Source: a virus
Length of the DNA stretch: 25,834 nucleotides
Virus record (IMG/VR): IMGVR_UViG_3300020473_000736
Location: 1 to 25,834 of that record
Direction: 5' to 3' (one strand)
The notes under the pieces are model-generated. The model made no database searches and had not been told where the DNA came from. It saw nothing but the letters and a program-made list of their open reading frames with translations. The position numbers were made by a program, and so were the translations under genes. Shown one piece after another: positions 1-19,292 of this stretch (positions are counted from its first letter, which is position 1; every line of letters begins with the position of its first letter).

Positions 1-129
1 CGTAAGACATCCAAGGTAGTATACAGCGTAAAGGTTGTACCAGATTCGCATATTAGTGTAGATCACGCTCATATCGAGCAGATTGATGATATACACGGTG
101 ATCTAACTACTCATCCTAGAAAATACTGA
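1..129 (+). CDS. C-terminal fragment of an unidentified gene (5' end outside window)
   Basis: An open frame runs from the first base to a TGA at 127-129 and gives 42 residues ending in HPRKY. The residues are mostly polar, with several His and Asp (for example SVDHAHIEQIDD) and no recognisable motif. The stop overlaps the next start as TGATG, which fits a real, translationally coupled upstream gene in the same operon. By position next to baseplate genes it could be a small tail or baseplate accessory protein, but that is inference and I do not recognise the family. Too little is visible to judge its length or function. Confidence 0.6.
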   Translation, partial: RKTSKVVYSVKVVPDSHISVDHAHIEQIDDIHGDLTTHPRKY

Positions 130-416
130 TGTATCAGGCTTTACCTGAAGGAATATTTATTGGCCATAGTCCCATTGCTGGTCAAGGGGTTTTTGGCACT
201 AAGGATATTCCTTTGGGCACTGAATTAGGTATGTCCCATCTTATAATAGGGGAAGAGATTATTAGAACCCCTTTAGGAGGATTTTTAAACCATTCGGATA
301 ATCCAAATTGTGAAAAGTATAGGAAGAAAGATAGGTATTATATCAGAACAATAAAACCAATTGGACCTATGGAAGAATTGACTTTGAAGTATACCTTTTA
401 CGAAGTCGCTAAATAA
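129..416 (+). CDS. Small SET-domain protein, putative protein-lysine methyltransferase
   Basis: This 95-residue protein carries the hallmarks of a minimal SET domain. Seen in the sequence: a GQG turn at residues 18-20 (IAGQGVFG), matching the GxG SAM-binding loop; an NHSDNPN segment at 54-60, matching the NHSxxPN pseudoknot motif; and EELTLKY at 82-88, matching the ELTxDY motif whose Tyr is catalytic. SET proteins transfer a methyl group from S-adenosylmethionine to lysine side chains. At 95 residues it has little or no variable SET-I insert and no pre- or post-SET cysteine cluster. The start is fixed by the one-base overlap TGATG with the upstream gene, and no strong Shine-Dalgarno is visible. 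It lies directly before gp25, so it is probably expressed late with virion genes. The substrate, which could be a virion, ribosomal or host chromosome protein, cannot be inferred. Family assignment is firm; enzymatic activity is inferred. Confidence 0.85.
   Translation: MYQALPEGIFIGHSPIAGQGVFGTKDIPLGTELGMSHLIIGEEIIRTPLGGFLNHSDNPNCEKYRKKDRYYIRTIKPIGPMEELTLKYTFYEVAK
409..416 (+). promoter_or_regulatory. Weak late-promoter-like motif upstream of gp25
   Basis: The stretch GCTAAATAA overlaps the stop codon of the SET gene and ends about 25 bases before the gp25 ATG. It keeps TAAATA of the T4-type late -10 element TATAAATA but differs in the first two bases. A start six or seven bases downstream would leave a leader of about 18 bases. 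This is a weak call: in AT-rich DNA such a hexamer arises easily by chance, and the overlap with TAA is partly forced by the coding sequence. Confidence 0.25.
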
Positions 417-2657: not shown

Positions 2658-5600
2658 ATGGCGGGTCCAAGTTTAGCAGCACTGATTGAAAGTCAGTTAC
2701 CAGATTTCATTGTCGAGGATTACCCCCTCGTAACGAATTTTCTGTCGAAATACTATGAGGCTCTGTCCATAAGTGAAGGTCCGCAAGATGTAATTAATAA
2801 TTTTGAGAAATATCTTGATGTAGATACATTCTCACCTGAGATTCTTGTTAAGACAGCAAGTTTAGAACTAGAAATAACTTTAGGTACTGATAATATTGAT
2901 ATTACAGTAGATAATACTGATGGATTCCCAAACAGTAATGGGATGATAATGATCGATCAGGAAATCTTCTTATATACGTCTAAAACCCAGACTCAATTCA
3001 AGAATTGTATTCGTGGTTATAGTGCAAAGACAGAACTTGGCGATTTATACAACGATATTAAATTTGTTAACTCTGCAGCTGCTGTACATAAGCAATATGC
3101 TGTTGTTAATAACCTAAGCAACCTTCTATTGGCTGCTTTAATCAAGAATTACGAAGAACAGTATACTAGTGGTTTCCCATATCCTTATCTTAGAGATCAA
3201 ACGAATAAGAACCTCTTAGTTAAGAGGATAAAGGACTTTTATAACGTCAAAGGTACACCACAGTCACTGGAGTTCATCTTCCAGATGCTGTTTAGTGTCA
3301 AACCCGACATCATCTATCCAAAAGAGAATGTTTATAAGGCATCTGAGTCTGGATGGAACAATAAAGAACTTTTAGTTGTAGAAGCTATATCTGGTGATAT
3401 TAGAAAGGTTGTTGGTAACCCTGTAGTACAGACTCCAGATCCATATAACCCTGAATTAACTGCTGCTAATGCAATTATCGACAATATAGTCGGTGAACCT
3501 TATCAAGGTAGTTTACAATACACTTTAACCATCTCACCTGGTTCTAAAGAGGGTGAATTTGCTATAGCAAGACGTACATTCTTAATGAATGAACTTTCTA
3601 GCAATGCTGGACCTGGAGATCGTATAGATGTCTTCTCTACGATTGGTTTTCCAGAAAGAGATGGTCGAGTTATCATAGGAGTTGAAGAAATTACCTATAG
3701 TAACAAAACTGCAACTCAATTTATCATAAAAGAGAGGGATGCTGTTAATAGTCAGAACAAACAGGAGTATACACATAAGAAATTAGTTAGAGCCTTCACT
3801 AAAAACAACTTAGTTGGTCATTGGAACGAAAATGGAGTTTCTGGTGAAGTACATCTCCGTATATACGGTCTTGTATCTGGATTAAAGTCTAAAGGTATTG
3901 AACCAGAGGCAAGTGCTGGTCTAGAATATGATGAAACAGCAGATAACTACTTCGATGTCTCATCAGGTGGTATTCCATACGTTAATTTCAACAATATGGT
4001 CGAATTTAGGTCATCTGGATTTTCTGATGACTTACCATTATCTAACGAATGGATTATTAACGAAAATTTCTCAAAATTAAGTGGTTCAGACCCAAGTAAC
4101 GTAGGAACTAACAATATTAAGGATAAACTTCTTTCGGATGTCTCTGCAATCTATAGAGATGCTGAAAATTACTATATTGCGTCTTCTGGATTCCCATCTT
4201 ATGCTATTGGCCCATTTGATAACATTGAAACACCTCAAGATCAAGAATATCTTAAGATTTTACCTAGAAAACCAATAGAGGCTAGTTCTAAGAATATTAC
4301 AACCTCAAAAGAGGTTGGTGTTTTGGTTAATGGTGTTCCTATACTCAATCATAAGTCAGAAAGAGGTTTAGATTACGGTGCACTCGAAAAAATCACTATT
4401 ACTGACCCAGGAAGGAATTATAGTGTTCCACCTACTGTTAATATCGAAGGTGATGCAACTGCAACTGCTGAAATCAATGGGTTAGGTGAAATTACTGCTG
4501 TTAATGTTACAAATCCTGGAACTGGGTATACCAGTGCTCCAGCTGTCACATTTACTAGTGGATCAGGAGGTCAATTCACTGTTTTGATCCAGCAAGGTGA
4601 AATTGCCAACATTTATCTCTCTGTTAATGCTCAAGCACAAATAATTGATGCTGGTTCTGATTATACAGAGGCACCAGACGTTTTTATCTACGATGCTAGT
4701 GGAAAAGGTGGTGGTGCATTCTTTACCTGCCAAATAGATGCTACAACAGGTAAGATTACTGGATTTACTAAGCAATCTGGTGGTTTTGACTATGTGGACA
4801 GTTCTACAACTGTCACATTGGTTCCTAAGTCTAGAATGGCATCTGCAACTGCTGTTTTGACTAGATGGCAGTATAACAGATACTTAGAGATGTCTGTTGA
4901 CAATGGAAATGCTTCTGGTATCGTAGAAGACTCTAATGACCCTAATTATGGTTATGCATATGGCCATATCATTGCTCCTTCTTCTTTAAAGGTGCAAAGA
5001 GTAGATAATGTTGATGGTCAGGGTAACCCTTTATCGAATAAGAGTCATTCTCCAATATTAGGGTGGGCTTATGATGGAAATCCCATATATGGTAGTTTTG
5101 GATACGAAAATGCTTATCAGGACGTTACTGCTGCCAATCCTACTGTAAAAAGGATGGGATCTAGTTGGAAACTCAAAACAAGTAGAATATCCGATGCACC
5201 AAGCATAACAACTTACTCATTAGGTCGTTTTACTAATGATTATGAATTTGAAGAGCGTTTAGGTGATCTAGACGCTAATAATGGACGTTTTTGCACAACA
5301 CCAGAATTTCCCAATGGTGTATATGCATATTTTATGACTACTGATGATACGGAAGCACCTACCTTCCCATATACAATTGGTGAGTCATTTTATAACGTTC
5401 CTATCGAAGAAAACTGGAAACCTAAGTCTAGACAAGCATTTTTACCAGATGGAGTTCGTAGAAGGACTGTTAGTGCAAATGATAAGACAGGAGAACTATT
5501 AACTTCTAGAGTTAGTGGTATTGAGTATGGGCCAATTACAAATGTTGAGGTTCATCAATCTTCTTACAATTTTACGAATGAAGACGTTCTATACATCGAT

Positions 5601-8600
5601 AATTCCATTAATGATAATGGAGATGGACTATTTGCTGCTGTAGACCAAATTCAAGGTCAGGAAGTTGCATCTTTGTCCTGTAACACTCCTAAGAACCTTT
5701 ATCTTACTTGTAATGATAATGTATACCTAAACCATAATACTGTCCTTACACAGGATAATAGCGGTGCTACAGGAACGGTTATAGGTAAGATCGAAGAAGA
5801 TAATAAATTTGTAGTAAAAAATGTTACAGGAACGTTTAATAAAATTGATCCAGTTCAATCAACTACAGAAATTTACAATATAACCTTTGACGATACTGTT
5901 GTAGCAGATGTTGGATCTTTCATTGTTTATGCTGTTAATAGTGGTGGTGTATCACACGAAGCTGCTATTGGTAAGGTCTTACGTAACGTATTTGATAAAA
6001 ATACTGTTATTGTAGAATTGCAGAATGCTAACCCAGATTTAGAAACTACTGTTGTAGATGGTAATACTGTTACTATCCCTAGTACATCTTACAATAAACT
6101 TGGATTCTTTGCTGATGGTAATGGTTGTGCTATTGGTGAAGATTCAGCAACTATTGTAAATGTTAGAGCTCTATCTAAAAACTTTACATTACTTGATGTA
6201 GAAGATAATATTGCTGTTCTTAGAACTGCTAGTAAGAGACACGGTTTAGCAGTTGGTGATGATGTTATTGTTACCGTTCAACCTGACTCTAGTATTTCTA
6301 CACAGAAGTATTATGTAGAAACTAAGAAATATAATACAATTAAATTAAACCCACCCACAAAAGTCACTGATATCAATGGATCTGGGATAGCTAGATTAAC
6401 CTTGGTTAATGCTGGTAGTGGATTTACTCCATCAACTACTTTTGCTGGACTTACCCTTACCAATGCTTCTGGTACTGGTCAAAGTGCAACAGTTACCCTT
6501 ACCACAAATTCTGGTGGCCACGTAGAGTCATTTATTATAGCAAATAAAGGTGATGGGTATGGTTATGGAAATATCTTAACTATACAATCTAGTTTACTAG
6601 GTGGTAACGTTAATAGTCAGGAGTGTTCATTCTTTGTTGATGCTGCTGGTTGTGCCAAAGGTGATACTGTCATATTAACTACTAGTGCAGCTGGTTTTTC
6701 AGCAGGTGATATAGTTCAGATTACTGATGAGTTCTGTGAAATTGATAGTGTTTCAGGTAACGAAATAACTGTAGTACGTGGTGTCAATGGATCGGAAGCA
6801 GAAGATCATATAGAAGGTGTATCTGTAACATTAGTATCTAATGTTTATAGGTTTGAAAAAGATGCTAGTATATCCTTTGGTGGAAATACTGCATTTGTAG
6901 ATTCTTACAATTCTGAGACTCAAGACCTTACTGTTTATTATCAAAATGAAGGTGATACAGTAATTACTACATCATCTACATTTTTAGATGGTAGTACTCC
7001 TGCTAAACAGGTTTCTATAGCAAGTGCTCCAGATACTTCTTTGAAGTTTAGGTTTAGAAAGGATGGAGAGACAGAATGGAATAAAAATATTACATTAGAT
7101 ATTCAAAGAACATATCGTTACCTATTTGACACTAGTGATACCTCTTTACTCAATAGGAATCTTAAATTCTATGAGAATGTCTATAAAACTACAGATTTAA
7201 TACAGGCTTTTGAATCAGATACTAAACCAGGTGCTAACGGATCGTTTACTACATTCCAATTAGGATATGGTATACCTATAGATGGATCTACTTGGAATAG
7301 TACACCTGTACTAGATATTCCTCCTAAAATTTATTATGGAGAGGTATCTAATAAGATTGATAGTGAAGCACAGTTCTTTACTCTTGTAGAAGACCCATTT
7401 GCAGGTAAACACCCTGTATTTTATGGATATGAGATGGAGTTTGCTTATAGGCTTACTACTACTCCTCAAAATGAAGGATTTACAAATGTTCAATACTATA
7501 CAGACTCTCTATACGCTGTAGGAGCGATTAAGAGGGTTAAAGTCATTAGTGGTGGTAAAAACTACACAATGCCACCTTTAGTTCCTGGTGTCTTCTTAAA
7601 TAAGCGTTTTAGAGGTGCTTTTACTCCAAATATCATCGATGGTAGAATTGTATCAGTTACAGTCACTGATACTGGATTAAATTACTCAAAACCCATTGTT
7701 TTGCTTGAAAATATCGGAAATGGAGCAAATGCTAAGTTTAATGTTGAATTAAGACCAGATGGAAGTGTAGGACGTATTATTCCTACAGTTGAAGGTATTG
7801 ATTACCCCGATACAACTACTTTACGTCTTTATGAGTCTGATGTCAAGTTATTTGCTCACGGAGACGATATTGGTAAGTTGGCAACCCTAGAAATCATTTC
7901 TTCGGGTAAAGACTTCAATAACGATCCAACATTGACTCCACAAGTCAATCCACCCATTGTAATGACTCTAAACAATATGCCAGATAAGGCATTCTTGAAT
8001 GGAGAGCTAATTACGCAAAGAAACCTAGGTGGAGACGTAATTGCTTCTGGTAGAGTCGATTATTGGGTTGACGGTATTAATATTCTTCGTTTGAAGGGTA
8101 TTTACGGAAACTTCGATTCTAGGTATCAAATCTATGGTGAAACACTTCGTAGTTATGCAAGTATTCAAAAAATCTTTGTAGCAGACATTGTTCCCGAAAT
8201 TGGACCTACAAGTACTTCAGTTGGTTCATATTCAAGTGATAGAAGTAAATTAAGTGCAGTTTCTCAAAAAGTCCAAGATGGAGTCTATTATCAAGATTAT
8301 TCTTACGTAGTTAAGTCTACAGTCTCTATTAACGACTGGAGAGACTTTGTTAAGCGTTTTACCCATCCTGCTGGATTTAACCTCTTTGGAGAGGTCTTAA
8401 TTGAGTCTGAAGGTGATGGAACGCAACCAGAGACTATTGACACTCCACAATCGGGTATTAAGGATAATGGCTTTGGTGCTGTCCTTAGTATTCTAGAACC
8501 AGGCGTTTTGGGTGTTACTTGTTCTCATAAGTCGAGAAAGATTACTCAATCCCACGTTAGAGTCGATTCTATGTCGAAACAACGTGGTAAGGGAACTATT

Positions 8601-11600
8601 AACTATAGTGAACAAAATAACGTTGAAATTGAAGTATTTGACTTAGATCTATCACCAGAATTTGATGGTGCTATTCAGGCTGATGGTACAATCACTGGTA
8701 CGACTCAATTTACATTATTCAAGAAAGATATAAACGAAGTACTATCTCCATATAATGCAAGACAATTAATTGTTACTTTAGATGGTGTTTTACAGGATCC
8801 TGATACTGCTTATACAATTAGTGGATCAACAATAACATTTGCTTCACCTCCATTAGGACCATATATTGATACTCGTACTGGTATTGCTGTTCCTGGTGTG
8901 ACTTTCTATGGAAAGTCGATGAAATTCCAGGATGATACTAATAATGCTGAATGGATGCTAGAAGCGACTAATATTACTTCTCAGTTTGATGGTACTACTA
9001 AAGAATTTGATCTTGGTATTACTATTGCAGAAAATGATCATTTATACGTTTCTTTAGATGGTGTTATTCAGGAACCAGATGTAGCGTTTACATTAACACC
9101 AGGTGGTATTGGTACTAGTAAGATTACCTTTAGTGAAGCACCAAGACAAGTTGGTAAGATTGTAGAATTAGATATTGGTGATGCAACTAATTGGTTGGTA
9201 AATGACTTTGTTGTTGGCCAAACTTCTGGAGCAAGAGGTGAAATTGTTGCTAAGAGATATTTCCGAGGTAACAAGTACCTAGATGCTGCTAATATCATTA
9301 AAGATAATGCTTCTGTATTAGCAGAAGAATCAGTTGGTATATTAGATGATACTAGTAAATTTAAACCTGAATATTTCCAATATCCAGGTCTAGGAAGAAA
9401 TCAGTGTATTGTTGACCTTAAGTCTGTTCTTAGGGCAATGTCAGATGACCTTATACAAGGTGGTAACAGTAATACATTTGATGCTGCTAAAGAGTATCTA
9501 CTAGATCCTTCAGATCCTAATTCCGATATTAAGCATATTGAGGGAGAAGTAGAAGCAACTTTATGGGCTATGAAGTATCTTAAGGATATGACTATCCTTG
9601 CGGTACGTAATAAGTTTGGTATAGACAATCTATACGACTTCCAGAGAGCAGCAGCATCTGATTTTAAATTAACACCTTCTAATGCAGTATACACTCCTTC
9701 TAATGGTACATTTGTACTAACTATACCAAATCACGAGCTTACTACAGAAGATTACATAACCATTGCTGATAATGCACTAAAATTTAGTTGCACAATGGGA
9801 ACTGGGGATAAGACTTATCCAAGACAAGGTGATCCTGCTTACAGGTCAACTTTGGCCATTACAAATGTAACAGGTGATGATGTTACTGTTAATGTAGGTG
9901 CTACAACCAATATTACTCATACTCCTACTGCTGGTTCCTATGATCCTGCTACAGGTTTATTAGAACTAACTATTGGATCTCATAACCTTAAACCTAATAC
10001 TGCTGTTAAGATTGCTCCTAACTCACTATCATTCAGTTGTGAGATGGATGATCAGGCTACAGTCAAGACATATCCTAGAACAACCGATCCTTACTTCGAC
10101 ACTGCTGTTAATATCGTAAGTACTGGATCTACTTTCCATACTGCTACTGGTGCAATTTATAGTGGTACTACAGGTATTATGACTGTTACCGTTCCAGATC
10201 ACGGATTTGAGAATGGAGATAAAGTTAAAATTGCTGATGGTGGAATAACATTTAGTTGTACCTATGGTGCTGGAGTTCACAACTATGTTGGTGGTACTGC
10301 AACCAATGCTATAACTGTCACAGGTGGTTCTCAAATGAATGTCACCAATGCTCAGTATACTCCTAGCACTGGCGATTTAATATTGACTATTGGTGCTGGC
10401 CATAATCTTACACTTGTAGATACAATTACTATTGCTGCTGGATCATTAACTTTCCAATGTGATTTGGATAACTTTGGTTCTGATCACTCTTATCCACGTT
10501 CTACTGACCCTGTATACAACAAAGCAATTGGAATTAAAGCAGTAGGTAGCACAACTATTACAGTTGATGTTGGTGTAAGTTCTCCTGGTTCTGCATATCC
10601 ACGTTCTACTGATGCTATCAGTGGCAAGTTTATGCCAATTTCAAATGTAACTGATAACACATTTGATATATCAGTATTAGATACAATTCCTTCTACTAAC
10701 ACTGATGTACACACTTATGTAAGTTCAGTACCTAATGCTATTGAGTTAGAAAAGGGTAGGATTACACTTCAAGTTGGTTCTTCTCCTTTAGTAAGTCATA
10801 ACGTTAGTAATGCTCAATATGACCCTCAAACGGGTGATATGGTTTTAACTATTGGTACCCATAGTTTAAACACAAATGAAAGTATTAAGTTATTAGATAA
10901 TTCTATAAGATTTAGTTGTACAGAGGGTAGTGGAGAGTATTCATATCCTAGACCAGATACAATTCCATTAACTGCAACTACTGGCACCACATACAATCCA
11001 ACGACAGGTGTTATGAGTGTTACCACAACTGGTAACCACGGATTAGTAGATGGTGACTGGATTAAATTTGCTGATGGTTCATTATCACTTAGTTGTGATT
11101 ATGGTACTACAAACCACACATATGTTGGTGGAACTTCTATTGATGCTCTTTCTTCTGGTGGAACTAACTACAATGTCATTGGTGCAAATTATAATTCTGC
11201 TAATGGAGAGATGGTTCTTACAATTGGAACTCATTCTCTATCAACCAGTGATACTGTATTAATTGCTGCAAATGCTATAGCATTTACTTGTGATGCAGAT
11301 AATAATGCTACTACTCACACATATCCTCGTATTGGAGATCCTGCTTATAATACAGCAATTGATATTGATGCTGTAGATCAAGGTGCTGGTACTATTACAG
11401 TTAATGTTGGTGCTGCATCTGGTGGTCAGACAAAAACATATCCTAGAGAAACGGATTATCCACACGATAGATGGTTAAAGGTTTCTAATACTCAGGCTGA
11501 TACTACAGTATTTGAAGTTACTGTTTTAGATGCAATTCCTTCTACAAATACTAATACTCACGTATTTGTTTCAGCAGTTGCTGATGGTATTAGTAAGAAG

Positions 11601-14600
11601 AAAGATCCATTCCACGATACTGCAATTAATATCAAGGGCTCTGATCAAAGTGCTGGTACTATTACCATTAACGTATTGAATACAGCTCCTTCTACTAATG
11701 TAACACCACATACCTATCTCGGATCACTTCCTGGAGCAGTAATTAGTGGTGGAGGTTACACTCACAGATTCATTGGTGCTGCTAATGATGCTATTATTTC
11801 TGGTGGTGACTATACACATACATTCGTAGAATCAACACAAAATTCAATTGGTGTATATGCTGATCCTTATAATATTGATAATCCTGTAGCAAATACCTTT
11901 ATTGATGCTGCAAAACTAATATCAGATAACAAGACTTTCGTTGCTGAAGAAGCAGTAGCAAGAATGGCTACTGGTACATTACAAACTGTTAGTGATGCTA
12001 CTTACACACCAGTAACAGGTATTCTAGAATTGAATATTGGAGCTCATTCTTACACTACTGGTCAATTTGTTAGAATCCCAGACAATTCATTAATATTCAG
12101 TTGTACAATGGGTTCTGGTAATAAAACCTACCCACGTCCATCCGATCCTATTAGTGGTGAAACAGTTCAAATTAAATCTGTAGACCAGTCAGGTGGAACA
12201 TTTACTATTGATGTAGGTGCATCACCTATTGTAAATTATGATGTATCAAATGCTACATATGACCCTGCATTGGGTGATATGGTACTAACTATTGGTTCTC
12301 ATAATTTATCTACAGGTACAAGTATTAAACTTGCTACTGATTCATTAAAGTTTGAGTGTCCTGCTGCTGTTGGAACTCACATTTATAGCGGTGGTACAGT
12401 AACAAATGCAGTTACAATTGATGGTGTTCAAAAAGATATAACTGACGCTGATTATAATCCAGTAACAGGTTTATTAGAATTAACTGTTGGATCTACTACT
12501 GGATTAGCTGCTGCTACTTCACATCAAGCAGGATCGGGCACTACTTATAATCCAACTACAGGTATTATGACCTTGGAGGTTACTGGTCATACCTTCTCTA
12601 ATGGTGATCTAGTTTATCTTGATGATGGTGCAGTTACATTTAAATGTCAATATGGTGTAGGTTCAGCACATACGTGGGTTGGTGGAACATCAACTAATGC
12701 TATTACAATTACTGCTGGTAGTGTCCAGAAAGATGTAACATCTGCTACATATGATCCTAATACTGGTCTTTGTGTAATGACCATTGGAGCACATAGTTTT
12801 ACAACTAGCGACACAGTAACTATTGGTGCTGATAAGTTATCATTTACTTGTACTGCTGACGGTAACGTCAAGACTAAGACATATCCTCGTGCAACCGACC
12901 CTGCATATAATACTGCTATTGCAATTGATGCTGTAGATCCTTCTGGTGGTACTATTACTTGTAATGTTGGTGTTGTAAGTGGTAATGTAACAACTGCATA
13001 TCCTCGTGCTACTGATCCTATTAGTAATAAGTGGGTTGCAATTTCTAATGTTCAGACAGATACATTTGATATCCAAGTATTAGATACAATCCCTTCTACA
13101 AATACAGATGCACATACATTTGTAAGTAGTGCACCAGGTGCTATTAAGAGAGCATCAAATACTATAACTATTGGTGCTGGTAAGGTAACCTTTACTTGTG
13201 ATGCAGATAATCACGCTACTGATCATCCATATCCAAGAACAACTGACCCTGTATACAATACTCCAATTGGAATTATTGCTGTAACAGGAACTACAGTTTC
13301 TTGTAACGTTGGTATAGCATCAGCCACTAGTCAAAGTACATATCCAAGAGCAACTGGAGCAGCGACATCTAATGGTTCTGACTATGCTTACGATACCCCA
13401 TTAGAAATTACAGCAACCACTGGAACTACTATTACACTTAACGTTAATGGTGGTCAAGGTGCTATTAGTGTTAATTCTGCTCATACATTCGTTGAGGCTA
13501 CTGCTGGTGCAGTAATTAGTGGTGGTAATTATACTCATACATTCCAAGGATCATCTGCACCAATAGAAGTTGGTGTTGGTACTATAGCTGATCCATATTA
13601 TGATGATGCTGCTTATATCAAGTATGAAGGTACACCTCTTACTGCTACTAATGCTGCATATGCTCCTGATACTGGAATAGTAACTCTAACAGTACCTACT
13701 CTCCAATTTACACCATCAGATGCTGCATATAGTCCTGCATCTGGTGATATGCAAATAACTTTAGGTGCTGGCCATAATCTCACTACTTACGATAGTATTA
13801 AGATCGCTGCCAACTCATTATCATTCAGTTGCGAGTTTAATGGCGTAACTCAAACTAAGACATATCCAAGAGCAACAGGTGCTGCTACAACTAATGGTGC
13901 TGATTATGCTTATGATGTATTCTTACCAATACTTAAAGTAGATGATACTACTGTAACTGTTAATGTTAATGGTGGACAAGGTGTTATTAGTCATAATGTT
14001 CCTCATACATTCCAAGGTGCTGGTCCTTTGTGTATTACATCTCAAGGTCACGGTCTAGCATCTGGAGATAAGATTAAGATTGTAGATGGATCATTAACCT
14101 TTACTTGTGCTGAAGATGGTAACTTAACTAATCACGCATACCCTAGAGCAACAGATCCTATTAGTGATAAGTGGATACCTGTATCAAATGTTACACCTAA
14201 TACTTTTGATATACAATGTTTAGAGACTTTACCATCTACTAACGAGACTGTTCATACATTTGTTTCTGCTTTAGTAAATGGTATTATTAAGCAAGATGGT
14301 GTTATTGTAACAAATGTTGGTAAATCTTCAAATACAACTCCTCATCTATTCTCACCTCAGGTAGGTCAGACACCAACTAATGCAACTTATACCCCATCAA
14401 CGGGTATTATGGAAGTCACTATCACCAGTCACGGATTTGATAATGGAGATTATGTACAATTTGCTGATGGTGCTGTTATATTCCGTTGTGATGAAAATGG
14501 ACAGGCTGATGATCACGCATATCCTAGAGCGATAACTGATTCCTTTACTGCTGGTACTGGTACTTCATATGATGGTAGTACAGGTGTACTAACAGTAGAT

Positions 14601-17600
14601 GTTGGTGTTACACACAACTTATCTGATGGTGATTGGATTAGATTCAAAGATGGTGCACTTACATTTACTTGTACAGAAGACACGAATCAGACACAACACT
14701 CATATCCTAGGTACACGGATTACCCAAGTAATAAGTGGTTAGAAATTTCTAATGCTTCAGGACAAACATTTGATGTTACTGTATTAGATATTATTCCTTC
14801 TACTAACACCACAGCACATAGTTTCGTAGCAAATCAGGCTATGACTGATGGTATCGAGCACAAGAAAGATCCTGCATCTGGTTCTTGGTTGAAGATACTG
14901 AATAAGACAAGTGATACCTTCCAAGTACAAGTTAATACTACAGTACCTTCAAGTAACGTTACTACTCACGTATATCAAGGTTCATTACCAAATAGTGTTA
15001 AGAGAGCAGTAATTCTGACAGGTGGTGATTATCAGCATACATTTGATAGAGCATTAACTAATTCAATTACTGCTAATACAGGTGCTAAGTTTACTCCAAC
15101 TAATGCAACATTTGCACCTGACACTGGTATTCTTGTTCTTACAATTGGGTCTGGACATAGTTTAACTACTTCTAATACCATCACAATAGATCCTAATGCT
15201 ATTGTAATGAGATGTGAGATGGATGCAAATGAGACTCCTCATTCTTATCCTAGACCTACTGATCCTGCATATGGTAGAACATTAAGTCTACAATCAGTAG
15301 ACGATGGTGCTGGTACAATTACATTATTTGTAGGTAAATCACTTCCATTAGCATATGAACCAACTGTAGGTAGATATGATCCTATTACAGGTGATTTGAT
15401 AATGGATATTGGAGAGCATAGATTGTCTAGAGGAACTGGATTTAAGTTCTTCCGTGATGCTCTTTCATTGACTTGTTCAATGGACAATCACGAAACTGTC
15501 CATACCTATCCTCGTGCTTCTTCACACGATGCACTTGGCGATTGTGTTGACGACGTTAAAGATATTCTTAAGGCTATTGTATGGAACCTTAAGTATGGTG
15601 GTAATAACAGGGTATGGGATGCTGCTGATCTATTCATTGATAGAAGGGGATATTTAGAGCATATCCAACACCAAATACCAGAAGTCTTAAATGTAATGGG
15701 ACATTTGAAGACTATCCTTGCAAACGTAATACGTAGTAATGATGTTAATGTAGTTGGATCTCACGGTTTAATACAAGTTAAAGATCCTTCTATTACTAAG
15801 GAATCTAATGAATGTGCTGCTGTAGAATCTGCTGTTAATACATTTGTTACTTTAATCGAAGATGCAGTACAAACTCCAAATACATTCGAGTCTAATGTAG
15901 CAAGAACTATCCCAGAAAGATGGCCTATTGTTCATAGTTCATTAACTGCTAATAGAGATCTTACTATTACTGTTGATTCACTTCCTCAGTGTGCTCAAGT
16001 TGAATCCGCTATTAATACGTTGTTTAGTATAGTTACTACAACTATTCAGGAGACTGCTTATAATAACACTAACTATTTGATGACGATAACTCAGGACTTC
16101 CCTAATCCCAATAAGATTCAGGTAGAAATGTCCGAGAAGGAATTTATTGCTGGTGAAGATGTTCAAAGTGAAGCTACTTTAACTACTGTTACTGCTACTA
16201 GTACTGATGTTATTGCTCCAGGTATTCAACAGAAATTCTTTGGATATAAGCACGGTAAGTACTACAAGTTAGATTCTATTGAACCTCAGTTTAATAGTGC
16301 TCAAACTATATTTGAATTAGAACGTAGTGGTGTTCCTTTCTATGCAGAAAGAAATCAGAATATTGTAATTGTATTGAACGGTGTTATTCAGCAAAATAAA
16401 GTAGCGTATAGGATAGAAGATAACTATGTAATCTTCAACGAACCTCCTTCAACAGGATCTGCTTGCTTTATTCTGTACTACTTTGGTTTAGATCCAGAAC
16501 GTATTCTCTTAGGATATAATATTGAGCCACCTGGCACATTTAAGAAGTTCTTTAAGTTAACTTTGGATACACAAGTTATTATTCCTGTTGAAGGTGCTGA
16601 TTGTTGGGTATCAACTGATGCTAATTCTGATACGCATACCTATGAGTATTCGTATGCTAGAGGTAGAATTTATAAGCAGAACTGGGAACCTGGTTCTAGA
16701 AACCTTGTATTCGTCGAAGGTGTTACAGCACAGAAAGTTAACTGGGAAGGTGGTACTATAAGCATCACAAGAGATAGAGGAGCTAGTGCTTCTTTACTTG
16801 ATGCTAATGTTACAGCAGTAGAAGAACTAGTTAACGTTGATCTTAGAGAAAGATTATTTAATAGACAAGATAGATTAGAATCTAATTTGAAACCAGGAGA
16901 TCTTATTCAGATTGACGGTGAGGCAGATACACGTTCAATCATACGTGCTGCTAGAGAAGCACTTGTAACCTCTGGTTATGACAGTGATACTACCGTTGGA
17001 TCGTTCTTCAGATCTTATGAATATGAAGTTGTAGTTAACGTTGGTCCTTATTCTGGACAGATTGAAGGTGATGGTGGACAAGCTGTTGCTCGTATTGACG
17101 CAGAATTGAGATACCATACACTTGTTTCTAGTAGACAATTAAATCAAGAATATCTACCAGGTGATATTCTAGTTCAGTATGCTGATCAAAATAATACTAG
17201 TTCTGCTATAGTATGGCAGGCTACAGTCAAGAACTACGTTCCTGCTAGAAAGACTATAGAATTGTATAGTAACTACCTAGATGGTAATCCTTACACTGAT
17301 CCAGTAGAGGCTAATTTCCGTCCAGGCGAAAAAGTTTATATTGATGGTACTGTTGGTACTGAATCTATTGGTCTTCAATACCTAAAACCAGGTGGTGTTA
17401 ATAGTCTTGTTGTTTCTAAGAGAGATAATAGTACTTACTTCACCAATCAGTTTAACTGGAGAAATGATAACGTATTGAATAAAGGTGAAGATCGTCTTGG
17501 TGGAGCATTTGTACCTGCTAATGCAAGTGCTAACAACATATCACAAGAATATGGTTTTACTTCATCAATATACTCAGATGATTTAGAAGATCAAATTTCC

Positions 17601-19292
17601 AAGAATTATCGTGAACCACCAGTACTAGTTTTCCGTAGTGCTTCCTTACTTGATGAAAATGGTGTTGCTATTGGATCACCTACAGGTGGTGGTGCACGTG
17701 CAAATGCTATCGTCACTAGAGGTGAAGTAACTGATATTGAAATTATTTCATCAGGATCAGGATATAAAGTACCACCTCAAGTTTTATTCACTAGAGGATA
17801 TTTCGTTATTCGTAAGGATCCTATTAATATTAAGAACCTTACTACTTTCGGTATTAACAGACAGATAGATCTTCGTTGTGGTCTTAGATCATATATTGAC
17901 ACTATCTTTAAAGGTGGTTCTGCTCCTCAATGGAGATCGATGTTACCTCTTGGTACCACATTGGTATTTGGTAATGCTGGTAGTCCTTCGTATATGATTA
18001 ATAGGACTTCTGATCCTAGAGTTATCATTAGAAAGATTCTTCCTCTGAGTGATATTACCACAAAACCTCAACCACAAATTCTATTTGAATTAGGACCAGA
18101 AGATCTTAAGTGTCAGCATAGAGGAACTAAAGTTACACAAACTCAGTGTACTGGTGGTGTACAAGGTATCTCAGTTGCTTTATCGAAATATAAGAAGACA
18201 GAAACTAAGCTTAGTGCTCAGTCAGGTTGTATTGAGAGACAAGCTGGTAATTTAGGTGATTCATTGATTGGTAAGGATACATTCAGTCCTGGACTTCTTG
18301 GTCCTCATCTACAGTATCTACAAGACTTTAAGTTTGAAATTCAACCTCAAAGTAGCACTAATAACACTGGTTCTTATGTAGATGGTAAAGGAAATACTAT
18401 TAACTACGTTATGGGTGATATGACTATTGGATTCTTCTCTGATTACTATCCTACCCTTGCCGTTGGTGATTTTGAAAATCCTGAAATTGCTGGTTCTAAA
18501 GTTGTAGCTCCTGGTGATACCAATGACTTCAACTTTATGCAAGGATCAAAAATACATTTTGGTACAACTTTGAAGTATTCTGCTTTGGATAATCCAAATG
18601 GTACAGATACATTACTTGTTACATCTACTGCTGGATTCCCTGCTAGTGGAGGTAGTTTAATTATTGGAAGTGCCAGTGATCAAGATAAGAGAGAGAAGAT
18701 TACGTATACACAAGCATTTGCCGATCGTTTTGTTGGGTGTACACGTGTCAATCCAATAGGTGTAGTCGAAAAAGGATTTAGTGCTTATGATTTCGGTACT
18801 ACCAATGTAGGGGCATCAGTCGTTGCAGGTGGTACAGGCACAGGCACAGGAGGTTTTGCTTCCAACATAAATTATCTCTTATTCTCAGGTGCAGGTGGAG
18901 CTAGATCCGCAACATTTGCTCCTACTGACTTGACTACATACAATACGGTAACATTTAGTGCGATTCGTGGTAACGGTAGCAATGGTGGTAATGCACCTTC
19001 TGCTGGAATACACGATTTGAACGTGAGTTACAGTATTGATGGTGGAACTACATTCTATGATATTGGGTCAGTTGCAATCTATTCAGACACTACGTTTGAT
19101 AATTGGCATACAATTACTCAAAATATCCCATCGAATGCTCAAACTGCCTCAACAATACTCCGTATCTATATGGCTGACTCCACGAATATGACATCAGAAC
19201 AGTATGGTGTCCGTTTAATGTGGTTCGATGATGCCAATACTGACTCCTATGTCGCAGGTGACTATATAATCACCGCAGATTTAGATCTATAA
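2658..19292 (+). CDS. 7: Giant modular gp7-like baseplate wedge protein, 5544 aa
   Basis: A single uninterrupted frame of 5544 codons (roughly 0.6 MDa) lies between gp6 and gp8, where T4-like phages carry gp7, the baseplate wedge initiator (1032 aa in T4). The N-terminus, with PDFIVEDYPLVTNFLSKYYE near residues 15-34, resembles marine-phage virion proteins at this position. Modules in order: GFP/YTS beta modules (about 76-124 and 315-365), a GxGYT-rich region (577-735), a YHYH domain (797-816), more GxGYT modules (1241-1316, 1624-1728), two LDGV modules (about 2013-2163), a helical module (2207-2338), the YPR repeat array (2339-4290), half a helical module (4296-4362), paired CAxVESAxNT helices (about 4386 and 4445), a third LDGV module, a fourth GxGYT module (about 5005), a third GFP module (5313-5368) and a C-terminal beta-sandwich-like domain (5378-5544). 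There is no signal peptide or obvious transmembrane segment. It presumably starts wedge assembly through its N-terminus and projects the rest outward. The gp7 name rests on synteny and the YHYH domain; I see no clear alignment to T4 gp7. It could also be a fibre fused to a gp7 equivalent. Confidence 0.8.
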   Translation: MAGPSLAALIESQLPDFIVEDYPLVTNFLSKYYEALSISEGPQDVINNFEKYLDVDTFSPEILVKTASLELEITLGTDNIDITVDNTDGFPNSNGMIMIDQEIFLYTSKTQTQFKNCIRGYSAKTELGDLYNDIKFVNSAAAVHKQYAVVNNLSNLLLAALIKNYEEQYTSGFPYPYLRDQTNKNLLVKRIKDFYNVKGTPQSLEFIFQMLFSVKPDIIYPKENVYKASESGWNNKELLVVEAISGDIRKVVGNPVVQTPDPYNPELTAANAIIDNIVGEPYQGSLQYTLTISPGSKEGEFAIARRTFLMNELSSNAGPGDRIDVFSTIGFPERDGRVIIGVEEITYSNKTATQFIIKERDAVNSQNKQEYTHKKLVRAFTKNNLVGHWNENGVSGEVHLRIYGLVSGLKSKGIEPEASAGLEYDETADNYFDVSSGGIPYVNFNNMVEFRSSGFSDDLPLSNEWIINENFSKLSGSDPSNVGTNNIKDKLLSDVSAIYRDAENYYIASSGFPSYAIGPFDNIETPQDQEYLKILPRKPIEASSKNITTSKEVGVLVNGVPILNHKSERGLDYGALEKITITDPGRNYSVPPTVNIEGDATATAEINGLGEITAVNVTNPGTGYTSAPAVTFTSGSGGQFTVLIQQGEIANIYLSVNAQAQIIDAGSDYTEAPDVFIYDASGKGGGAFFTCQIDATTGKITGFTKQSGGFDYVDSSTTVTLVPKSRMASATAVLTRWQYNRYLEMSVDNGNASGIVEDSNDPNYGYAYGHIIAPSSLKVQRVDNVDGQGNPLSNKSHSPILGWAYDGNPIYGSFGYENAYQDVTAANPTVKRMGSSWKLKTSRISDAPSITTYSLGRFTNDYEFEERLGDLDANNGRFCTTPEFPNGVYAYFMTTDDTEAPTFPYTIGESFYNVPIEENWKPKSRQAFLPDGVRRRTVSANDKTGELLTSRVSGIEYGPITNVEVHQSSYNFTNEDVLYIDNSINDNGDGLFAAVDQIQGQEVASLSCNTPKNLYLTCNDNVYLNHNTVLTQDNSGATGTVIGKIEEDNKFVVKNVTGTFNKIDPVQSTTEIYNITFDDTVVADVGSFIVYAVNSGGVSHEAAIGKVLRNVFDKNTVIVELQNANPDLETTVVDGNTVTIPSTSYNKLGFFADGNGCAIGEDSATIVNVRALSKNFTLLDVEDNIAVLRTASKRHGLAVGDDVIVTVQPDSSISTQKYYVETKKYNTIKLNPPTKVTDINGSGIARLTLVNAGSGFTPSTTFAGLTLTNASGTGQSATVTLTTNSGGHVESFIIANKGDGYGYGNILTIQSSLLGGNVNSQECSFFVDAAGCAKGDTVILTTSAAGFSAGDIVQITDEFCEIDSVSGNEITVVRGVNGSEAEDHIEGVSVTLVSNVYRFEKDASISFGGNTAFVDSYNSETQDLTVYYQNEGDTVITTSSTFLDGSTPAKQVSIASAPDTSLKFRFRKDGETEWNKNITLDIQRTYRYLFDTSDTSLLNRNLKFYENVYKTTDLIQAFESDTKPGANGSFTTFQLGYGIPIDGSTWNSTPVLDIPPKIYYGEVSNKIDSEAQFFTLVEDPFAGKHPVFYGYEMEFAYRLTTTPQNEGFTNVQYYTDSLYAVGAIKRVKVISGGKNYTMPPLVPGVFLNKRFRGAFTPNIIDGRIVSVTVTDTGLNYSKPIVLLENIGNGANAKFNVELRPDGSVGRIIPTVEGIDYPDTTTLRLYESDVKLFAHGDDIGKLATLEIISSGKDFNNDPTLTPQVNPPIVMTLNNMPDKAFLNGELITQRNLGGDVIASGRVDYWVDGINILRLKGIYGNFDSRYQIYGETLRSYASIQKIFVADIVPEIGPTSTSVGSYSSDRSKLSAVSQKVQDGVYYQDYSYVVKSTVSINDWRDFVKRFTHPAGFNLFGEVLIESEGDGTQPETIDTPQSGIKDNGFGAVLSILEPGVLGVTCSHKSRKITQSHVRVDSMSKQRGKGTINYSEQNNVEIEVFDLDLSPEFDGAIQADGTITGTTQFTLFKKDINEVLSPYNARQLIVTLDGVLQDPDTAYTISGSTITFASPPLGPYIDTRTGIAVPGVTFYGKSMKFQDDTNNAEWMLEATNITSQFDGTTKEFDLGITIAENDHLYVSLDGVIQEPDVAFTLTPGGIGTSKITFSEAPRQVGKIVELDIGDATNWLVNDFVVGQTSGARGEIVAKRYFRGNKYLDAANIIKDNASVLAEESVGILDDTSKFKPEYFQYPGLGRNQCIVDLKSVLRAMSDDLIQGGNSNTFDAAKEYLLDPSDPNSDIKHIEGEVEATLWAMKYLKDMTILAVRNKFGIDNLYDFQRAAASDFKLTPSNAVYTPSNGTFVLTIPNHELTTEDYITIADNALKFSCTMGTGDKTYPRQGDPAYRSTLAITNVTGDDVTVNVGATTNITHTPTAGSYDPATGLLELTIGSHNLKPNTAVKIAPNSLSFSCEMDDQATVKTYPRTTDPYFDTAVNIVSTGSTFHTATGAIYSGTTGIMTVTVPDHGFENGDKVKIADGGITFSCTYGAGVHNYVGGTATNAITVTGGSQMNVTNAQYTPSTGDLILTIGAGHNLTLVDTITIAAGSLTFQCDLDNFGSDHSYPRSTDPVYNKAIGIKAVGSTTITVDVGVSSPGSAYPRSTDAISGKFMPISNVTDNTFDISVLDTIPSTNTDVHTYVSSVPNAIELEKGRITLQVGSSPLVSHNVSNAQYDPQTGDMVLTIGTHSLNTNESIKLLDNSIRFSCTEGSGEYSYPRPDTIPLTATTGTTYNPTTGVMSVTTTGNHGLVDGDWIKFADGSLSLSCDYGTTNHTYVGGTSIDALSSGGTNYNVIGANYNSANGEMVLTIGTHSLSTSDTVLIAANAIAFTCDADNNATTHTYPRIGDPAYNTAIDIDAVDQGAGTITVNVGAASGGQTKTYPRETDYPHDRWLKVSNTQADTTVFEVTVLDAIPSTNTNTHVFVSAVADGISKKKDPFHDTAINIKGSDQSAGTITINVLNTAPSTNVTPHTYLGSLPGAVISGGGYTHRFIGAANDAIISGGDYTHTFVESTQNSIGVYADPYNIDNPVANTFIDAAKLISDNKTFVAEEAVARMATGTLQTVSDATYTPVTGILELNIGAHSYTTGQFVRIPDNSLIFSCTMGSGNKTYPRPSDPISGETVQIKSVDQSGGTFTIDVGASPIVNYDVSNATYDPALGDMVLTIGSHNLSTGTSIKLATDSLKFECPAAVGTHIYSGGTVTNAVTIDGVQKDITDADYNPVTGLLELTVGSTTGLAAATSHQAGSGTTYNPTTGIMTLEVTGHTFSNGDLVYLDDGAVTFKCQYGVGSAHTWVGGTSTNAITITAGSVQKDVTSATYDPNTGLCVMTIGAHSFTTSDTVTIGADKLSFTCTADGNVKTKTYPRATDPAYNTAIAIDAVDPSGGTITCNVGVVSGNVTTAYPRATDPISNKWVAISNVQTDTFDIQVLDTIPSTNTDAHTFVSSAPGAIKRASNTITIGAGKVTFTCDADNHATDHPYPRTTDPVYNTPIGIIAVTGTTVSCNVGIASATSQSTYPRATGAATSNGSDYAYDTPLEITATTGTTITLNVNGGQGAISVNSAHTFVEATAGAVISGGNYTHTFQGSSAPIEVGVGTIADPYYDDAAYIKYEGTPLTATNAAYAPDTGIVTLTVPTLQFTPSDAAYSPASGDMQITLGAGHNLTTYDSIKIAANSLSFSCEFNGVTQTKTYPRATGAATTNGADYAYDVFLPILKVDDTTVTVNVNGGQGVISHNVPHTFQGAGPLCITSQGHGLASGDKIKIVDGSLTFTCAEDGNLTNHAYPRATDPISDKWIPVSNVTPNTFDIQCLETLPSTNETVHTFVSALVNGIIKQDGVIVTNVGKSSNTTPHLFSPQVGQTPTNATYTPSTGIMEVTITSHGFDNGDYVQFADGAVIFRCDENGQADDHAYPRAITDSFTAGTGTSYDGSTGVLTVDVGVTHNLSDGDWIRFKDGALTFTCTEDTNQTQHSYPRYTDYPSNKWLEISNASGQTFDVTVLDIIPSTNTTAHSFVANQAMTDGIEHKKDPASGSWLKILNKTSDTFQVQVNTTVPSSNVTTHVYQGSLPNSVKRAVILTGGDYQHTFDRALTNSITANTGAKFTPTNATFAPDTGILVLTIGSGHSLTTSNTITIDPNAIVMRCEMDANETPHSYPRPTDPAYGRTLSLQSVDDGAGTITLFVGKSLPLAYEPTVGRYDPITGDLIMDIGEHRLSRGTGFKFFRDALSLTCSMDNHETVHTYPRASSHDALGDCVDDVKDILKAIVWNLKYGGNNRVWDAADLFIDRRGYLEHIQHQIPEVLNVMGHLKTILANVIRSNDVNVVGSHGLIQVKDPSITKESNECAAVESAVNTFVTLIEDAVQTPNTFESNVARTIPERWPIVHSSLTANRDLTITVDSLPQCAQVESAINTLFSIVTTTIQETAYNNTNYLMTITQDFPNPNKIQVEMSEKEFIAGEDVQSEATLTTVTATSTDVIAPGIQQKFFGYKHGKYYKLDSIEPQFNSAQTIFELERSGVPFYAERNQNIVIVLNGVIQQNKVAYRIEDNYVIFNEPPSTGSACFILYYFGLDPERILLGYNIEPPGTFKKFFKLTLDTQVIIPVEGADCWVSTDANSDTHTYEYSYARGRIYKQNWEPGSRNLVFVEGVTAQKVNWEGGTISITRDRGASASLLDANVTAVEELVNVDLRERLFNRQDRLESNLKPGDLIQIDGEADTRSIIRAAREALVTSGYDSDTTVGSFFRSYEYEVVVNVGPYSGQIEGDGGQAVARIDAELRYHTLVSSRQLNQEYLPGDILVQYADQNNTSSAIVWQATVKNYVPARKTIELYSNYLDGNPYTDPVEANFRPGEKVYIDGTVGTESIGLQYLKPGGVNSLVVSKRDNSTYFTNQFNWRNDNVLNKGEDRLGGAFVPANASANNISQEYGFTSSIYSDDLEDQISKNYREPPVLVFRSASLLDENGVAIGSPTGGGARANAIVTRGEVTDIEIISSGSGYKVPPQVLFTRGYFVIRKDPINIKNLTTFGINRQIDLRCGLRSYIDTIFKGGSAPQWRSMLPLGTTLVFGNAGSPSYMINRTSDPRVIIRKILPLSDITTKPQPQILFELGPEDLKCQHRGTKVTQTQCTGGVQGISVALSKYKKTETKLSAQSGCIERQAGNLGDSLIGKDTFSPGLLGPHLQYLQDFKFEIQPQSSTNNTGSYVDGKGNTINYVMGDMTIGFFSDYYPTLAVGDFENPEIAGSKVVAPGDTNDFNFMQGSKIHFGTTLKYSALDNPNGTDTLLVTSTAGFPASGGSLIIGSASDQDKREKITYTQAFADRFVGCTRVNPIGVVEKGFSAYDFGTTNVGASVVAGGTGTGTGGFASNINYLLFSGAGGARSATFAPTDLTTYNTVTFSAIRGNGSNGGNAPSAGIHDLNVSYSIDGGTTFYDIGSVAIYSDTTFDNWHTITQNIPSNAQTASTILRIYMADSTNMTSEQYGVRLMWFDDANTDSYVAGDYIITADLDL
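2883..3029 (+). repeat. GFP/YT beta module, copy 1 (coding)
   Basis: This encodes the pattern TDGFPNSNGMIMIDQEIFLY followed by TSKTQTQFKNCIRG. The same pattern, a GFP turn, G.(I/V)(I/M)I, a glutamate, YT/YS, then TQF and a charged end, recurs at 3600-3750 and near the C-terminus at 18594-18760. It is a short beta module used three times in this protein. It is common in marine-phage virion proteins, and its function is unknown to me. Confidence 0.65.
3600..3750 (+). repeat. GFP/YT beta module, copy 2 (coding)
   Basis: This encodes IGFPERDGRVIIGVEEITYS followed by NKTATQF. It lines up with copy 1 over the GFP turn, the VIIG strand and the Y(S/T).KT.TQF end. The similarity is clear in protein but low in DNA, so the duplication is old. 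Confidence 0.6.
4386..4862 (+). repeat. GxGYT-type beta repeats within the gp7-like gene, block 1
   Basis: The block holds tandem beta units with the pattern (I/V)T(D/N)PG.(N/G)Y(S/T)..P.V....G.GA.(A/F)......G.I. Seen copies include ITDPGRNYSVPPTVNIEGDA, VTNPGTGYTSAPAVTF and IDAGSDYTEAPDVFIYDASG, with a degenerate SGGFDY copy at the end. Similar units recur at about 6380-6604, 7527-7840 and 17670-17810 in this gene, and also in the gp8 gene downstream. They look like structural spacer or decoration domains. Confidence 0.7.
5046..5105 (+). other. YHYH-domain core motif within the gp7-like gene
   Basis: Residues 797-816 read HSPILGWAYDGNPIYG followed by SFGY. This is the characteristic HSPI.GWAYDG.PIYG.(Y/F)GY core of the YHYH domain family. 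Marine T4-like phage proteins at the gp7 position often carry this domain, and it also occurs in unrelated secreted bacterial proteins. Its biochemical role is not established. Here it is the best single marker linking this giant protein to marine phage gp7. Confidence 0.85.
6380..6604 (+). repeat. GxGYT-type beta repeats, block 2 (coding)
   Basis: The encoded units VNAGSGFTPSTTFAGLTL and ANKGDGYGYGNILTI follow the same (V/I).(N/A).G(S/D)G(F/Y)....... plan as block 1, with a linking segment GTGQSATVTLTTNSGGHV. They flank a run rich in Thr and Ser. This is a second use of the module in the same protein. Confidence 0.55.
7527..7840 (+). repeat. GxGYT-type beta repeats, block 3 (coding)
   Basis: Three units are visible: VISGGKNYTMPPLVPGV, VTDTGLNYSKPIVLLENIG and PTVEGIDYPDTTTLRLYES. 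They are separated by DGRIVSVTV and DGSVGRIIPTV strands, the same strand that follows the glycine-aromatic turn in block 1. The regular alternation suggests a row of small beta domains. Confidence 0.6.
8694..8856 (+). repeat. LDGV beta module, copy 1 (coding)
   Basis: This encodes TTQFTLF, then LIVTLDGVLQDPDTAYTISG and STITFASPPL. The plan is a TQF-type strand, a (L/I)(I/Y)V.L(D/N)GV(L/I)Q(D/E/Q)...A(Y/F) core, then a (I/V).F..(P/A)P end. Copy 2 follows at 8970-9147, and a third copy lies beyond the repeat array at about 16290-16488. The module is shared among marine phage virion proteins. Confidence 0.6.
8970..9147 (+). repeat. LDGV beta module, copy 2 (coding)
   Basis: This encodes TSQFDGTTKEFDLG, then LYVSLDGVIQEPDVAFTLTP and KITFSEAPR. 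It is tandem with copy 1 and shares the LDGV(L/I)Q(D/E)PD.A(Y/F)T core. It is followed directly by a GQTSGARGEI turn and the helical module. Confidence 0.6.
9276..9671 (+). repeat. Helical DAA/AEEAV-GGN module, complete copy (coding)
   Basis: Residues about 2207-2338 form a predicted helical module in an otherwise beta-rich protein. The N half reads DAANIIKDNASVLAEESVG. The C half begins at NQCIVDLKSVLRAMSDDLIQ and continues GGNSNTFDAAKEYL, with HIEGEVEATLWAMKYLKDM after it. It runs straight into the first array unit (TPSNAVYTPS). An N-half fragment recurs at 11862-11975 inside the array and a C-half fragment at 15543-15743 just after it. This type of module occurs in other marine phage structural proteins, and its function is unknown. 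Confidence 0.65.
10135..10746 (+). repeat. Higher-order super-unit, copy 1
   Basis: About 610 bases encode, in order: a TG..Y...TGIM unit ending in YVGG, an A.Y.P.TGD unit ending in SYPRSTDPVYN, a short half-unit ending in AYPRSTDAISGKF, an ISNV strand and DTIPSTNTDVHTYVSS. The same order and nearly the same length recur at 10970-11595 and 12523-13149. This copy has the GAGHNL form of the LTIG.H motif and lacks the DAVD.(G/S)(A/G)GTIT segment of the other two. Confidence 0.6.
10970..11595 (+). repeat. Higher-order super-unit, copy 2
   Basis: The block order matches copy 1: GTTYNPTTGVM, HTYVGGTS, MVLTIGTHSLSTSDTV, TYPRIGDPAYN, IDAVDQGAGTITVNVG, TYPRETDYPHDRWLKVSN and DAIPSTNTNTHVFVS. It resembles copy 3 more than copy 1, with GTTYNPTTG(V/I)M, TIG.HS.(S/T)TSDTV and DPAYNTAI.IDAVD in common. 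It is preceded by a VSNAQYDPQTGDMVLTIG unit, as copy 3 is preceded by a similar unit. Confidence 0.65.
11862..11975 (+). repeat. Orphan N-half of the helical module inside the array
   Basis: The encoded segment reads DPYNIDNPVANTFIDAAKL followed by ISDNKTFVAEEAVARM. It matches the N half of the complete module (DAANIIKDNASVLAEES) at 9276, but the expected C half with Cys and GGN does not follow. The next residues are an array unit (SDATYTPVTGILELNIG). The matching C half appears only after the array, at 15543. A shorter possible remnant, DPYYDDAAYIK, lies near 13590. Confidence 0.6.
12523..13149 (+). repeat. Higher-order super-unit, copy 3
   Basis: About 627 bases encode GTTYNPTTGIM, HTWVGGTSTNAI, CVMTIGAHSFTTSDTV, TYPRATDPAYN, IDAVDPSGGTITCNVG, AYPRATDPISNKWVAISNV and DTIPSTNTDAHTFVSS, the same order as the other two copies. 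The YPR-to-YPR spacing of 117 bases (12882 to 12999) equals that in copy 2 (11322 to 11439). A truncated unit (ADYNPVTGLLELTVGSTTG) immediately precedes this copy. Confidence 0.65.
15543..15743 (+). repeat. Orphan C-half of the helical module after the array
   Basis: Residues 4296-4362 read CVDDVKDILKAIVWNLKYGG, then NNRVWDAADLFIDRRGYLEH and further helical sequence. This matches the C half of the complete module (CIVDLKSVLRAMSDDLIQGG, NSNTFDAAKEYL) at 9400-9655. It is joined directly to the last, partial array unit (YPRASSHDALGD), with no N half before it. Confidence 0.65.
15813..16110 (+). repeat. Paired CAxVESAxNT helical segments (coding)
   Basis: Two similar helical stretches follow the C-half helical module: CAAVESAVNTFVTLIEDAVQ starting at 15813 and CAQVESAINTLFSIVTTTIQ starting at 15990. 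Both begin with Cys, keep VESA(V/I)NT and end in an amphipathic run to (V/I)Q. This is a local duplication of about 59 residues. In related marine phage proteins such segments commonly follow the GGN helices, so the complete module upstream of the array may have lost its tail to the array. Confidence 0.55.
16290..16488 (+). repeat. LDGV beta module, copy 3 (coding)
   Basis: This encodes AQTIFELERSGVPFY, then IVIVLNGVIQQNKVAYRIED and YVIFNEPPS, ending FILYYFG. The L(D/N)GVIQ...A(Y/F) core and (V/I).F.(E/S).P end match copies 1 and 2 at 8694-9147. One pair lies before the array and one copy after it. Confidence 0.6.
17670..17810 (+). repeat. GxGYT-type beta unit, block 4 (coding)
   Basis: This encodes TGGGARANAIVTRGEVTDIE followed by IISSGSGYKVPPQVLFTRG. 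It keeps the G.GA.A.A.(V)..G.(I/V)T.I.I...GSGY..PP.V plan of the earlier blocks and is the clearest single consensus copy in the C-terminal third of the protein. Confidence 0.65.
18594..18760 (+). repeat. GFP/YT beta module, copy 3 (coding)
   Basis: This encodes TDTLLVTSTAGFPASGGSLI, then IGSASDQDKREKITYTQ and FVGCTRV. It repeats the GFP turn, (L/V)IIG strand, ITYT strand and aromatic-plus-Arg end of the two N-terminal copies. It immediately precedes the C-terminal beta domain. Confidence 0.6.
18790..19289 (+). other. C-terminal beta-sandwich-like domain of the gp7-like protein
   Basis: Residues about 5378-5544 contain a Gly-rich lead (GGTGTGTGGF) and a GARSATF strand. These are followed by TVTFSAIRGNGSNGGNAP, LNVSYSIDGGTTFYDIG and a series of alternating strands ending YGVRLMWF. 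The N-G-G-x-x-P and L.V.YS.DGGT.(F/W) features recur in terminal domains of marine phage structural proteins and resemble jelly-roll or carbohydrate-binding folds. A peripheral, possibly host- or glycan-contacting role is inference. Confidence 0.5.

Follow-up and report, generated by a model that had tools for sequence, protein, structure and literature searches.

A minimal SET-domain protein encoded in an exchangeable slot before gp25 in T4-like marine phages

The DNA analysed here, a 25,834-nucleotide stretch of viral sequence (IMG/VR record IMGVR_UViG_3300020473_000736, positions 1 to 25,834; hereafter the window), raises the question of why a gene with the hallmarks of a protein lysine methyltransferase should lie beside the baseplate wedge genes of a T4-like phage. 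The gene (129–416, + strand) starts with ATG and encodes a minimal SET-domain protein of 95 residues. The motifs picked out by the first-pass annotation, GxG, NHSxxPN and ELTxxY, are all intact (G18-Q-G20, N54-H55-S56-D-N-P59-N60 and E83-L84-T85-L-K-Y88), and the family searches agree. Pfam SET (PF00856) is matched with an E-value of 7.4e-11 (42.8 bits; cut-off 22.4), and PHROG 28741 with an E-value of 6.5e-33, residues 1–94 aligning on positions 2–99 of the 100-position profile and hence over its full length. NCBIfam returned no family (best E-value 0.12), and neither Pfam nor PHROGs gave a match to a T4 baseplate protein family. The SET-domain identity of the ORF is confirmed and is not a product of chance.

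The surroundings are also as first annotated, both in the window and in a second IMG/VR contig (L006) whose SET, gp25, gp6 and giant-protein N-terminus are 100% identical to those of the window at the protein level. The upstream ORF overlaps SET by one base: in the string TGATG, its stop codon (TGA, 127–129) and the SET start codon share base 129. The left end of the window cuts this ORF, leaving its 3′ end (1–129, + strand; partial matches to PHROG 9048 and 35332), and in L006 it is whole (80 residues, 5759–6001) with the same overlap. After a gap of 24 nucleotides, SET is followed on the same strand by genes for a gp25-like baseplate wedge protein (441–839; Pfam GPW_gp25, E = 2.7e-15; PHROG 261, E = 1.3e-51), a gp6-like wedge protein (840–2654; PHROG 219, E = 3.4e-198; Pfam Gp6-like_1st), a giant protein of 5544 residues that is virion structural or baseplate-wedge-like and occupies the gp7 position, with gp6 before and gp8 after it (2658–19292; matched in four pieces by PHROG 4406, 2885, 701 and others), and a gp8-like wedge protein (19340–21157; Pfam Phage-Gp8, E = 4.3e-12; PHROG 438, E = 5.2e-168). 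Repeated matches of the giant ORF to several virion-structural and tail-fibre PHROGs suggest internal repeats. The last part of the window (21175–25833) is an ORF of at least 1553 residues, open at the right end, that matches PHROG 358.

Is the protein likely to be an enzyme? An AlphaFold2 model (m4b0fcc7b4660, from 81 sequences; pLDDT 91.5, pTM 0.80) confidently predicts a SET fold. The top Foldseek match in the PDB is the chlorella virus protein vSET (3kma; E = 9.2e-6, TMq 0.75), and the best 50 rows are all SET or PR/SET methyltransferases by title. A second structural comparison (VIA) gave vSET a Z-score of 11.8 (85 residues, rmsd 2.0), level with MLL1 and others (Z up to 11.9). We aligned 81 relatives from both phages and bacteria after de-duplication, leaving aside four isolate records and short rows; all 81 match Pfam SET (E = 0.01 or better). 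Thirteen residues are invariant across the whole alignment (Y2, S14, G20, G34, R46, G50, G51, F52, N54, H55, N60, E83 and Y88), and L5, P6, G18, F22, H37, T47, P48, L49, S56 and I78 are at least 90% conserved. The family is under purifying selection: of 18 pairs chosen by hand, 17 gave a finite dN/dS, ranging from 0.05 to 0.27 with a median of 0.12.

The insert before the NHS motif in SET enzymes shapes the substrate groove. Between the two conserved blocks the phage protein has 17 residues and vSET 35, such that most of the usual groove insert is absent. This reduction, together with the very short chain, would be in keeping with a SET fold that had lost catalysis and served as a small module for binding or assembly. 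We consider such a module improbable, since Tyr88, Asn54-His55 and Gly20 are kept without exception in relatives from phages and bacteria alike, and since selection is purifying. The predicted core, the retained catalytic residues and the low dN/dS instead make a functional enzyme likely: the gene would encode a minimal, catalytically competent protein lysine methyltransferase, which would rank among the smallest SET-type enzymes that methylate proteins.

We looked to promoter elements for when the gene might be expressed. The heptamer CTAAATA, described as the late-promoter motif of the T4-like phage Aeh1 (PMC1524935), occurs at 409–415 (+ strand), within the last codons and the stop codon of SET and 25 nucleotides before the gp25 ATG. 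It is the only + strand copy in the window, where both strands together hold two copies against 8.7 expected by chance. Across SET-bearing loci, CTAAATA was found in 26 of 61 distinct gp25 upstream regions, mostly with a spacing of 25–28 nucleotides (shuffle mean 1.9, maximum 8), in 9 of 63 distinct SET upstream regions (shuffle mean 0.9, maximum 3), and in none of 57 gp6 upstream regions. When ATAAATA and TTAAATA are added, an element lies 14–36 nucleotides before the start codon in 18 of 60 distinct SET upstream regions by raw count, uncorrected for chance. The SET gene of the window itself has none of these three elements at the usual spacing, and a scan of L006 for sigma-70-type promoters around SET found two sites, fewer than the shuffle mean of 5.0.

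These putative elements suggest that SET is late-associated and closes an upstream gene group, rather than opening the wedge operon. The first-pass annotation had placed the gene inside the baseplate operon and had it expressed late with the wedge genes. It does adjoin those genes, but 'inside' is too strong because the putative gp25 late promoter overlaps the SET stop codon, which puts SET at the boundary. Late expression is plausible, because in some relatives SET is immediately preceded by a late-promoter element, but from outside the wedge operon: transcription would run late from upstream of the gp25 promoter, with a late promoter of its own in some relatives.

A survey of related loci showed that the place before gp25 is a conserved slot which holds swappable versions. 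Among 142 fetched gp25 relatives with usable gp6, the slot contained SET in 83 and, in 53, an unrelated gene of about 45–70 codons that we call pvd after its PVDKS motif; the remaining six were cut off upstream. No locus among the 136 that could be classified had both genes there, and none had neither. These figures pool loci retrieved with SET and with gp6 queries, and are therefore enriched for SET; they include near-copies or the same contig twice (e.g. L139/L160, L128/L178 and L100/L189), and the loci are phylogenetically dependent. The 80 loci of the gp6 query alone comprise 19 with SET, 53 with pvd, none with both or neither, five cut off upstream, two without gp25 and one (L061) that nearly duplicates the window contig. 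The pvd proteins (loci L076–L085 and L088–L138) share the pattern PVDKSxEFIxSGMTLIT and match PHROG 1414, 1336 or 12480; their AlphaFold model is of low confidence (pLDDT 65).

Far from being a constant companion of the wedge genes, SET is missing from the slot in 53 of the 136 loci, including close relatives with gp6 about 76–80% identical, and is absent from the entire 187-kb and 149-kb records G006 and G007. Mapped onto the gp6 tree, slot occupancy changed at least eight times, seven of these changes being forced by starred branches. Mutual exclusion might be taken as proof that SET and pvd are functionally equivalent. We reject this because one contig (G005, locus L175) carries SET together with a pvd elsewhere, and because no pvd was found in the SET-bearing records of P-RSM6, P-SSM7 and AG-345-P14 (a 67-kb record). 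Isolates such as S-RIM2, moreover, have a pvd match near 159 kb, and in records of that species gp25 lies near 53 kb.

The SET gene of the window has itself been swapped in. Three loci (L062, L063 and L064) have gp6 and gp25 proteins 97–98% and 98% identical to those of the window, but SET proteins only 58–59% identical. At the DNA level the flanks of L062 and L063 are mostly 91–100% identical to the window, falling to 57–70% over the first two thirds of SET and rising through 82% at its end to 99% where gp25 begins. L064 drops in a similar way (54–64% within SET), its PAAR region being somewhat more diverged. The window SET is nearer (about 70–72%) to those of L007, L018 and others, despite gp6 proteins only about 35–50% identical. 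The gp6 tree groups the window with L062–L064 with 100* support, and the SET tree rejects this grouping (AU p = 0.00024, a value that is somewhat optimistic because the group was picked after the identities had been seen). Further discordant pairs are L020/L148 (gp6 95%, SET 72%) and L192/L206 (gp6 98%, SET 76%), and the converse is seen for L009/L142, where SET is near-identical (dN 0.014) and gp25 diverged (dN 0.255). The drop in identity and the discord between trees show that SET has been exchanged at its own site and has not co-evolved with the wedge genes. It would thus be an exchangeable accessory gene, housed in a slot that tolerates recombination, with the PAAR-spike gene cluster on one side and the wedge operon on the other.

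The family extends well beyond this slot. A single-sequence scan of IMG/VR with the window SET gave 54 loci, and an alignment-based scan at least 594 relatives among the 600 matches listed; PHROG 28741 is a large family, common in marine phages. Annotated phages contributed eight records from five phages (three of them twice), labelled, where annotated, only as hypothetical protein: P-RSM6, P-SSM7, AG-345-P14, Kolga and P26218. The first four encode proteins of the same family as the window SET at 46–56% identity. P-RSM6 and Marine virus AG-345-P14 share its place directly before gp25, whereas in Prochlorococcus phage P-SSM7 the gene lies two genes past nrdB and in Pelagibacter phage Kolga after a gene for an AAA protein. 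Other neighbours, judged from the sequence by eye rather than by family searches, we take to be terminase, portal, DNA polymerase and UDP-sugar dehydrogenase. In Rhodoferax phage P26218 (L005, 4404–5297) the SET domain forms the C-terminal part of a 297-residue protein in a head/ejection gene cluster; 14 loci related to this fusion were fetched, and Pfam gave no match to the fused product at an E-value of 0.001. The family is also found on 25 bacterial genome contigs, some perhaps phage-derived and some clearly operonic, and no common functional theme emerged among the neighbours in the contexts inspected. In three flavobacterial/Bacteroidetes MAGs (L216, L223 and L227) SET lies 3–4 nucleotides after an argC-like gene and closely before a proC-like one, in an arginine gene cluster, and seven Porticoccaceae/HTCC2207 contigs (L228, L229, L232–L234, L236 and L237) conserve a beta-ketoacyl synthase gene followed by SET. 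The position beside gp25 is therefore anchored within this T4-like lineage but scattered at the level of the family (P-SSM7, Kolga and bacteria), and the occurrence of the family in unrelated phage contexts means that it has no fixed baseplate partner.

What, then, would the enzyme methylate? The main alternative to our own reading is a virion protein produced alongside SET, such as the giant protein, the PAAR spike or the lysine- and arginine-rich protein krr, with methylation serving to adjust assembly, stability or resistance to modification. The retention of the slot beside structural genes and the late-promoter elements both favour it. Potential substrates were examined for lysines that track SET within the window clade, comparing 16 SET loci with 10–11 pvd loci (14 with 10 for the giant N-terminus). 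Lysine accounts for none of the two residues fixed in the SET group in gp25, none of 15 in gp6, one of seven in the giant N-terminus and three of 15 in PAAR, the last three being absent from the sister group. The comparison covers one clade split only, so it is at most a lead, and the three PAAR lysines would point weakly towards a virion target. The krr gene lies outside the window, upstream of the slot (5482–5622 in L006, and in relatives). It encodes about 45 residues (PHROG 516) with near-invariant lysines, the core PKKTRQG..TK..ATSRN..KK.YRGQG and a composition that recalls a histone tail, and is found in SET and pvd phages alike. Lysine occupies alignment columns 9 and 31 in every distinct row (52/52 with SET, 35/35 with pvd), which speaks for krr as a virion substrate, and column 20 in 50/52 and 30/35. 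At column 10 the values are 43/52 and 19/35, uncorrected for relatedness. Overall, lysine conservation in krr is much alike with and without SET in the slot.

That similarity counts against a virion substrate, as do the movement of SET alleles independently of gp25 and gp6, the want of any SET-specific lysine in these two proteins, and the presence of the family in Kolga and other non-baseplate contexts. We regard a co-produced virion target as possible but unlikely. The tie to the baseplate or the neighbouring giant protein that was first proposed is not supported by these observations: SET is exchanged independently of gp25 and gp6, is lacking from the slot in close relatives and occurs elsewhere too. 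A more specific scheme, in which the slot is a late-transcribed host-tuning socket refilled by recombination with SET or pvd, and SET acts on krr, is a long shot. If krr were the substrate, phages would have their own version of the lysine methylation of histone tails, directed at a basic peptide of phage origin that binds phage or host nucleic acid or shields tail-protein lysines from host modification.

The evidence suggests an accessory late-acting enzyme that is not part of the baseplate itself. On the basis of the intact predicted core, the late motif, the allele-independent exchange and the unrelated contexts, we infer a trans-acting accessory lysine methyltransferase, and with it that the protein is active as an enzyme, is expressed late in this phage and has a host or shared target. 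The enzyme would use SAM to methylate lysine in trans on a target independent of the phage's own gp25 and gp6 alleles. The target is more likely to be a protein of the host, or a short lysine motif common to many phages, than the baseplate neighbours; a virion target conserved across phages, such as krr, would also tolerate allele exchange. Taken as a whole, the reading of SET as a late, exchangeable accessory methyltransferase that acts in trans on a host protein or shared short motif has, in our estimate, about an even chance of being correct.

SET proteins are already annotated in tailed phages, and PHROG 28741 is catalogued without a function label. In the open-access literature we found no account of this minimal SET family of marine phages, of the slot ahead of gp25 or of the replacement of its alleles in place, and lysine methylation of proteins by phages seems to have gone almost without description there. 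The enzyme family presented here is common in marine phages and combines a retained slot, late-promoter surroundings and the exchange of alleles; the Prochlorococcus phages P-RSM6 and P-SSM7 are cultured carriers. Other SET domains in tailed phages include ORF62 of Stenotrophomonas phage Ps15, mentioned in a single printed sentence, and proteins of uncultured Caudovirales in BFVD. The catalytic core fold and motifs of the phage protein are those of the eukaryotic SET methyltransferases (MLL1-4, EZH2, SET7/9 and SMYD), whose chains are longer; the inserts for substrate binding and the flanking domains of the eukaryotic enzymes are missing from the phage protein.

The closest solved structure by Foldseek, vSET (PBCV-1 A612L; PDB 1n3j/3kma), is likewise a minimal viral SET domain. 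The two share the NHS motif and the terminal Tyr, and differ in length (119 residues against 95), the phage protein being about 18 residues shorter ahead of the NHS motif. vSET is reported to be packaged in the chlorella virus particle and to trimethylate Lys27 of histone H3, a eukaryotic substrate (PMC7019647). By analogy, and given the place of the gene among virion genes, the phage SET protein might also travel in the particle and act on the host right after injection. The hosts are expected to be bacteria that lack histones, however, and members of the family lie in non-structural contexts, as after nrdB in P-SSM7. We judge a packaged effector to be quite unlikely and, like the inactive module, less likely than a virion target.
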